Origin: Symbiotaphrina buchneri
Taxonomy: Eukaryota > Ascomycota > Symbiotaphrinales > Symbiotaphrinaceae
Assembly (NCBI GenBank): GCA_001599915.1
Contig: BCIG01000010.1
Span: 248,001-312,000 of the forward strand
Direction: 5' to 3'
DNA: 64,000 nucleotides
Position 1 is the stretch's first letter. Each line of letters opens with the position of its first letter. Shown here in pieces: positions 19,941 through 20,528 of the stretch. The position numbers and the translations under genes were made by a program. The notes under the pieces are model-generated. The model was not told the DNA's origin. It made no database searches and saw only the letters and a list, made by a program, of their open reading frames with translations.

Positions 19941-20355
19941 AGCAAGGCTGGCCTTGTTAATTTACGTTTTTGCTACGAACACATCAACTTGTATGTTAAT
20001 GACCTAACATTGAATGTACGATTCGGGGTGGATACTAGGGCTTACATAGGTCGCATTTCATGATCAATGGCAACTGGGTGCGCCTGAAAGGTAATGGTCC
20101 AAGGTTACCGCTCGTCTTGGGCAGAATATTCCAGCCAGCTGTGTTCAGGAGGTATAAAATTAATTACCAAGCTCTAATTCTTATGCTCGTAAATATAATG
20201 GTCATTTCTCCGGTTTTTACGCGGTATCCACTCCGAAGAGATCGCGCACATTACGTAGTTTGAGCCTGCTAATCTAATCACATTCTCAATAGAAAAAAAA
20301 GAAAAAAAGGATAAGTGCCGAAGTGAGCAAAAGCAAAAGAATATGTTCACAGTAT
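19941..20355. other. 3' region of the Fic1-like gene and tRNA downstream flank
   Basis: AT-leaning 415 bp with no gene. It contains the oligo-T tracts (minus strand) that probably terminate the tRNA-Leu transcript. Confidence 0.5.
20293..20338 (-). terminator. Pol III oligo-T terminators of the tRNA-Leu gene
   Basis: On the minus strand, a T4 tract lies 18 nt past the tRNA 3' end (20335-20338). A T7 (20302-20308) and a T8 (20293-20300) follow about 50 nt further on. T4 or longer on the RNA-like strand is the normal Pol III stop signal. Confidence 0.7.
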
Positions 20356-20528
20356 GCAAGCTGAGAGGTTCGAACTTGGGGGTAGTGTAAGTAAATTGCA
20401 GAGCAAGGTCACACGAAATGTTAGTAAGCTTACCTCTCGCATCCTTTCGGATAGCAGAGGTTTTCGGAGCGACCTGTTAAGTGGCTCCTACTTAAATCTG
20501 CCGCCTTAGACCACTCGGCCAAACTTGC
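20356..20528 (-). tRNA. tRNA-Leu (anticodon TAA) with a canonical intron and a second 59-nt insertion in the T-arm
   Basis: Read on the minus strand from 20528, every helix is present. The acceptor stem GCAAGTT pairs with AGCTTGC, the D stem is GCC/GGC, and the anticodon stem is GCAGA/TCTGC with loop TTTAAG..C, giving anticodon TAA at 20494-20492. The long variable arm has stem ATCC/GGAT, and the T stem is GAGAG/CTCTC with loop TTCGAAC. A 31-nt intron (20460-20490) follows position 37, as expected, and contains CTTAA, able to pair with the anticodon loop. A second insertion of 59 nt (20375-20433) separates the T stem from the T loop; it begins GTAAGC and ends CCAAG. Without both, the tRNA is 83 nt, normal for Leu. 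The A box TGGCCGAGTGG (20511-20521) and B box AGTTCGAACCT (20366-20376) are intact. It may be functional with a novel intron, or a disrupted copy. Confidence 0.88.
20375..20433 (-). other. 59-nt GT-AG insertion between T-stem and T-loop of tRNA-Leu
   Basis: The insertion starts GTAAGCTTAC (a perfect 10-bp palindrome) followed by TACTAAC-like sequence, and ends CTTACACTACCCCCAAG. It has a standard donor hexamer, a CTTAC branch-like word about 15 nt before the AG, and a length within the range of introns in neighbouring genes. Its last AG repeats the AG at the end of the 5' T stem, so the junction could slide by two bases. Confidence 0.75.

Follow-up and report, generated by a model that had tools for sequence, protein, structure and literature searches.

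The window, a 64,000-nt stretch of the Symbiotaphrina buchneri genome (contig C10, nt 248001–312000; the genome comprises 23.4 Mb in 82 contigs), contained on its minus strand, at nt 20356–20528, a tRNA-Leu(UAA) gene made up of three exons and two introns of different type, as delineated by sequence inspection, cloverleaf parse, cut search, ARAGORN and folding. One intron is a canonical tRNA intron, and the other, a 59-nt insert in the T arm, is very probably a major-type GT-AG spliceosomal intron in a working gene and belongs to a set of 15 or more, spread over no fewer than 12 tRNA genes. The argument for this assignment rests on the set of introns as a whole, not on the Leu intron alone. 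On the best reading of the sequences, from which splicing is inferred, the precursor tRNAs would depend on the spliceosome as well as on the tRNA endonuclease.

Among the 120 best matches listed for each protein, the top named ones came from Pycnora, Pleopsidium, Thelocarpon, Vezdaea and Candelina for the DUG1 peptidase (81% to 83% identity) and from Candelina, Candelaria and Geoglossum (66%), Pleopsidium (65%) and Pycnora (67%) for the gamma-tubulin complex protein GCP3. Most of the genera among these closest matches are lichen fungi. The matches place the fungus in the Pezizomycotina, in the neighbourhood of these genera.

Structure of the tRNA-Leu(UAA) gene

Exon 1 (nt 20491–20528, minus strand as are all parts of the gene; tRNA positions 1–37) encoded the 5′ strand of the acceptor stem, the D arm and the anticodon UAA, and contained an intact A box, TGGCCGAGTGG, at nt 20511–20521. 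It was followed by a 31-nt canonical tRNA intron at 37/38 (nt 20460–20490), exon 2 (nt 20434–20459; positions 38–53) with the 3′ strand of the anticodon stem, a long variable arm and the T-stem 5′ strand GAGAG, the 59-nt intron at 53/54 (nt 20375–20433), and exon 3 (nt 20356–20374; positions 54–72) with the T-loop and the 3′ strands of the T-stem and acceptor stem. Runs of T resembling Pol III terminators were located downstream within nt 20293–20338, namely T4 at nt 20338–20335 and T7 plus T8 at nt 20308–20293. The parsed exons of 38, 26 and 19 nt gave a tRNA of 83 nt with a class II variable arm, in which the acceptor had 7 of 7 pairs (one G-U) and the T-stem 5 of 5, closing the T-loop TTCGAAC. 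The 83-nt length, the 5-bp T stem and the 7-nt loop are as a reading of the gene made from the sequence alone had predicted for removal of the 59 nt.

Neither ARAGORN nor Rfam at gathering scores found anything in the raw window, an unsurprising outcome given the two introns of the gene. When the 59 nt were removed, ARAGORN reported a tRNA-Leu(taa) with a 31-nt intron, in agreement with the parse and with the identity and 37/38 intron originally assigned to the gene. The minimum-energy fold was a cloverleaf when the 59-nt insert was left out and scrambled when it was included. A free cut search showed that only 8 of the 8,835 deletions of 35–120 nt that were tried gave any cloverleaf; the four tied best cuts comprised one 59-nt cut in three registers and one 57-nt cut, and exactly one of the four, that between positions 53 and 54, began with GT and ended with AG. 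The placement of the extra 59 nt exactly at this border, away from the usual 37/38 site, was thus borne out.

The 59-nt intron was preceded by G and had the form GTAAGC...CTTAC...AAG, with the donor at nt 20428–20433 and the branch-like word CTTAC at nt 20387–20391, 17 nt from its 3′ end. The donor and the AG end, both pointed out in the sequence-only reading, fit the consensus of the intron set described below, whereas the branch-like word, also pointed out there, departs from CTRAY by one mismatch and is the weakest point of this intron. The intron opens with the self-complementary GTAAGCTTAC (nt 20420–20433, minus strand), which runs into a perfect TACTAAC; lying about 8 nt from the donor, this word is too close to serve that donor. 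Removal of the insert does leave an uninterrupted B box, as had been proposed, but one correction is needed. Since the insert terminates in AG, the unspliced gene also keeps its B box (AG|TTCGAACC): the word AGTTCGAACC at nt 20367–20376 is formed by the terminal AG of the intron together with exon 3.

Interrupted tRNA genes in the genome

Loci came from a genome-wide search with the Rfam tRNA model, in which 62 of 613 candidates were scored, from short A-box motifs and from one gapped pattern; every motif-search match was fetched and parsed with our own cloverleaf parser, which permits a 37/38 intron and, optionally, one to three GT-AG deletions. A covariance model built from 21 tRNAs of this genome worked on the fetched loci. 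The fully parsed nuclear tRNA genes numbered 38, several expected isoacceptors not being found in the survey; GT-AG introns outside 37/38 were present in 12 of them and absent from 26.

T-arm introns were found in the genes for Leu-UAA and Ile-AAU copy 2 (both at 53/54), Arg-UCU, Pro-AGG and Gln-UUG (52/53), and Trp-CCA and Ala-AGC (51/52). The Phe-GAA gene carried two introns, at 30/31 and 52/53, Asp-GUC copy 2 one at 30/31, Ser-GCU one at 25/26 and Arg-CCG one in the D loop at 19/20, while Lys-CUU copy 2 (contig C13, nt 632450–633250, minus strand) carried three, at 8/9, 28/29 and 55/56. The Phe-GAA and Asp-GUC copy 2 genes thus shared the identical anticodon-stem site 30/31, at which their intron sequences were unrelated. 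Removal of the GT-AG introns gave a well-paired cloverleaf in 11 of the 12 genes. Every one of the 12 interrupted genes also had a canonical 37/38 intron, as did 22 of the 26 uninterrupted ones, a total of 34 of 38, which makes this a very intron-rich tRNA set. The other small RNA genes scored were uninterrupted, as seen in 16 of 16 5S genes found (47 of 1,215 candidates scored) and in the single U6 gene found (47 of 1,458).

Eleven of the interrupted genes, the set without Asp-GUC copy 2, were submitted to ARAGORN. Unspliced, eight were missed and three mislabelled; after splicing, the isotype agreed with that of the parser in 7 of 11, and in the remaining four (Ile, Arg-CCG, Pro and Phe) ARAGORN moved the 37/38 intron and reported another anticodon.

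Several loci were left out of the tally. Three tRNA genes on large contigs (L007, C3:809360; L014, C1:974472; L058, C9:400015), one of them near a run of N, looked mitochondrial by eye and, on that appearance, would be mitochondrial DNA insertions or assembly joins. Two truncated tRNA-like loci, L084 (contig C1, A box at nt 518994; followed by a T run) and L060 (contig C20, nt 294745–294791), possessed acceptor and T-arm pairing without a normal anticodon arm. The locus L018 (contig C12, nt 528725–528886, minus strand) had well-paired acceptor, D and T arms and an unreadable anticodon arm; when it was tried as an intron-bearing tRNA gene, one or two GT-AG deletions did not make that arm readable. 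The anticodon loop of one tRNA of the genome, L023 (contig C7, nt 666913–667002), reads CGC, on a tRNA body that we take to be reminiscent of Pro.

The specificity of the cloverleaf fit was examined in several ways. A scan of 203,715 bases from 46 sources, on both strands and with one GT-AG deletion of 40–130 nt permitted, gave scores of 21.5 or higher for tRNA loci, L018 (there as L044) and the window gene, and for nothing else. With any deletion of 35–120 nt permitted, neither 31 decoy loci with A-box-like words nor 60 random windows of 420 nt produced a cloverleaf scoring 20 or more. The free cut search was applied to 11 constructs, and in 9 of them a single GT-AG cut was present among the 2 to 5 cuts tied for best, against a chance expectation of about 4 in 256 per construct; for Asp-GUC copy 2 the GT-AG cut was one of two tied best. 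In Arg-CCG, which has a floppy D loop, the GT-AG cut scored 24.4, level with 38 tied best cuts, and at the first Phe intron the GT-AG cut (25.97) was narrowly exceeded by a different one (26.06). Sixteen motif matches with three mismatches and three gapped-pattern matches yielded no tRNA in any of the 19.

Splice signals and resemblance to mRNA introns

The 15 introns, most of which had been sought as GT-AG, shared a donor consensus, with GT in 15 of 15, R3 in 14, G5 in 14 and Y6 in 15; GTRNGY describes it, and the Leu donor GTAAGC conforms. The acceptors were CAG in six, TAG in six and AAG in three, with no GAG, so that HAG was found in 15 of 15. In 12 of the 15 introns CTRAY was present 14–22 nt before the 3′ end, compared with 13.8% of shuffled introns (binomial, 1.4e-8); the three that lacked it were those of Leu (CTTAC at -17) and Ser-GCU and the second Phe intron. 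The lengths were 49–69 nt plus one of 112 nt, with a median of 57. As the first Phe intron and the three introns of Lys-CUU copy 2 had been recognised with donor and branch words in view, a strict, non-circular set was formed of the 11 introns recovered by scans requiring GT and AG alone; here G5 and Y6 were present in 11 of 11 and CTRAY in 8 of 11 (binomial, 1.5e-5).

For comparison, the DUG1 mRNA gene in the window was resolved into five introns of 49–59 nt by spliced alignment to three homologues, two of which agreed on all five, with the donors GTGAGC, GTAAGT, GTGCGT, GTGAGA and GTGAGT. The introns of GCP3 were left out, the spliced alignments being inconsistent between homologues. In this small sample the tRNA introns and the DUG1 introns agree in length and donor type, and differ in that the donor began with GTG in four of the five DUG1 introns versus GTA in 12 of the 15 tRNA introns, CTRAY being found in two of the five.

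Intron positions and the internal promoter

Eight of the 15 introns fell within the three-nucleotide stretch from 51/52 to 53/54. The B-box pattern RGTTCRANNC was kept in the unspliced gene by all eight, and by eight of the nine T-arm introns altogether, because the terminal AG of the intron replaces positions 52–53 or adjoins them upstream; the ninth, at 55/56 in Lys-CUU copy 2, splits the B box. Introns of the D arm and anticodon stem spared the A-box word, with the exception of that at 8/9 in Lys-CUU copy 2, and 13 of the 15 introns spared both boxes. Introns may thus persist where TFIIIC can still bind, and retention only at sites that spare the internal promoter would explain the cluster just upstream of T54. 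D-arm introns are under-counted, as the motif searches begin from intact A-box stretches, but this bias alone does not explain why eight of nine introns of the 3′ half lie at three neighbouring sites.

T runs were present downstream of all 11 interrupted genes checked, the set without Asp-GUC copy 2. These features bear on the possibility that the introns, although spliceosomal, are spliced only in Pol II read-through transcripts, the Pol III transcripts being dead ends. Spliceosomes do as a rule act on Pol II transcripts, as stated in sections of PMC8527467; this explanation nevertheless appears unlikely, since splicing confined to Pol II products would require neither that the A and B boxes be spared by 13 of 15 introns nor that T runs follow the genes.

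Search for the endonuclease motif

Another explanation is that a relaxed tRNA endonuclease excises the insertions as ectopic tRNA introns, in the manner of archaea, nucleomorphs and the red alga Cyanidioschyzon merolae. Passages of PMC4090602 record introns in the D arm and T arm for those systems, with as many as three in one gene, and the endonuclease of S. buchneri must be busy, given the canonical introns in 34 of 38 parsed genes. At the canonical register, however, the central helix of the bulge-helix-bulge motif (4 of 4 pairs) was present in none of 14 introns (the set without Asp-GUC copy 2), and loosening the registers by one or two bases gave four pairs in only one of the 14, that of Trp. 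A relaxed endonuclease, moreover, needs no GT-AG, donor or branch consensus, all of which would then be coincidence, as would the resemblance of the intron lengths to those of mRNA introns. We therefore regard this explanation as improbable and retain spliceosomal removal.

Integrity and copy number of the interrupted genes

Among the 20 pairs scored per gene, non-standard pairs were absent from 10 of the 12 interrupted genes, with one in Trp and two in Lys-CUU copy 2; in the uninterrupted genes they were absent from 23 of 26, with one each in the other three. By A-box motif searches with all matches parsed, the interrupted gene was the only one found for UUA, UGG, AGA, AGY and UUY codons, 'only' being limited to what was found since a divergent or A-box-interrupted copy would escape such searches. 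These searches returned one 5′ half each for Trp and Arg-UCU, one Ser-GCU gene and one Phe gene. For Leu(UAA), the 19-nt A-box stretch had two other matches in the genome within three mismatches, neither of which gave a tRNA, and 18 exact A-box words genome-wide belonged to Leu(UAA), Ser-GCU, Leu-CAG and the truncated L084 or otherwise to no tRNA. All these codons are in use, UUA accounting for 29 of 5,055 codons in ten ORFs of the window. Uninterrupted paralogues exist for three of the 12 interrupted genes, namely Ile-AAU, Asp and Lys-CUU copy 2.

These observations weigh on the view that the interrupted genes are disrupted, non-functional copies with precise insertions, which the sequence-only reading had entertained for the Leu gene; the other intact Leu(UAA) genes that this would imply were not found by the A-box motif searches. 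In the review by Yoshihisa (PMC4090602), eukaryotic D-arm and T-arm insertions are described as occurring mostly in one of many synonymous genes and as supposed pseudogenes. Lys-CUU copy 2 fits the view of a non-functional copy: it has three GT-AG introns in addition to the 37/38 intron and, because its B box is split at 55/56, its pairing is the worst and an intact paralogue (L015) exists, it is probably a decaying copy. As an account of the whole set, decay is improbable too, in view of the five codon sets for which the interrupted gene alone was found, the intact exon pairing in 10 of 12 genes and the T runs after all 11 checked, and random insertions would not all share GT-AG and one consensus.

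A group I intron follows a U, a residue that preceded the 5′ splice site in only 3 of the 15 introns, the Leu intron following a G. Although putative group I introns of 56–81 nt are reported from rDNA in parts of PMC3160393, degenerate small group I introns such as occur in fungal rDNA, or other mobile insertions, are hardly credible here, given this preceding base and the BLAST comparison of the 15 introns, which yielded just 10-nt matches in two pairs and ruled out that they are copies of one element.

Proposed maturation pathway and its significance

Spliceosomal removal from a Pol III transcript had been one of three options offered for the Leu insert from the sequence alone and is now strongly favoured, because the 15 insertions, spread over 12 tRNA genes, have donor, branch and acceptor signals in common and are about as short as mRNA introns, because the central bulge-helix-bulge helix is missing at the canonical register from all 14 introns tested, and because the A-box motif searches turned up no second intact Leu(UAA) gene. 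As we envisage it, Pol III would transcribe the Leu gene from the intact A and B boxes, and the spliceosome would excise the 59 nt after recognising the donor GTAAGC and a branch site in this transcript, so that the T arm could fold. The tRNA endonuclease would next take out the 37/38 intron, and end processing would proceed as usual.

It is further likely, though with less assurance than the nature of the Leu intron, that the spliceosome has become an obligatory tRNA-maturation machine in this lineage, serving about a third of the tRNA genes, including the apparently sole genes for Leu-UUA, Trp, Phe, Ser-AGY and Arg-AGA, which would give no tRNA without it. The internal Pol III promoter would then dictate where introns can lie, and the intron AG would be used twice, as acceptor and as part of the B box.

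Introns of tRNA genes are taught as the work of a protein endonuclease and a ligase. Should splicing be confirmed, it would show that tRNA maturation can recruit the spliceosome, that the latter can act routinely on Pol III transcripts and that intron gain reaches beyond Pol II genes; if the spliceosome is obligatory, tRNA supply is tied to mRNA splicing capacity. The set also makes intron gain readable, since the choice of sites seems to be restricted by promoter boxes and a fold that are both known, and rules of gain and retention thereby become testable. On the practical side, tRNA finders restricted to 37/38 introns miss or misname such genes, as ARAGORN did with the 11 unspliced genes above.

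Comparison with known systems

Among the matches listed in a search of the open-access literature (titles and abstract beginnings, exclusive of subscription papers and preprints), none described nuclear tRNA genes with spliceosomal introns. The tRNA-intron review PMC4090602 contains no word beginning with 'spliceosom', and neither do the available sections of the tRNAscan-SE 2.0 paper (PMC8450103). Such introns are therefore likely, not proven, to be new.

The nearest parallels lie in other structural RNA genes. Spliceosomal introns in the nuclear rDNA of ascomycetes, lichen fungi among them (Bhattacharya et al. 2000), are described in sections of PMC8527467 and PMC2586383; according to the former, a lichen intron of 57 bp is excised by yeast from a Pol I transcript. 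These resemble the present introns in being short (57 bp in Cladonia grayi) and in residing in genes for structural RNAs that Pol II does not transcribe; they differ in that they belong to rRNA and Pol I, whereas the Symbiotaphrina set belongs to tRNA and, by promoter, to Pol III, with sites apparently constrained by the internal promoter boxes. Fungal genes for U6 snRNA and U3 snoRNA likewise contain mRNA-type introns, and according to excerpts of PMC5832005, no other small structured RNAs were known in 2017 to have frequent intron interruptions. The likeness consists in spliceosomal introns within small structured RNAs, U6 being itself a Pol III product; in S. buchneri, by contrast, the tRNA genes are interrupted and the U6 and 5S genes found are not.

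As for position, the ectopic tRNA introns of C. merolae, nucleomorphs and archaea, those of the D and T arms being listed for nucleomorphs and C. merolae in passages of PMC4090602, also occur in the D arm, anticodon stem and T arm, and a single gene can carry several. In C. merolae and archaea they are tied to the tRNA endonuclease and the bulge-helix-bulge, and in the Guillardia nucleomorph they measure 3–24 nt, whereas the present introns bear spliceosomal signals and lack such a motif at the canonical register. The canonical 37/38 introns are carried by the same S. buchneri genes, and the GT-AG introns differ from them in position, length and signals, so that two splicing systems would act on one transcript.
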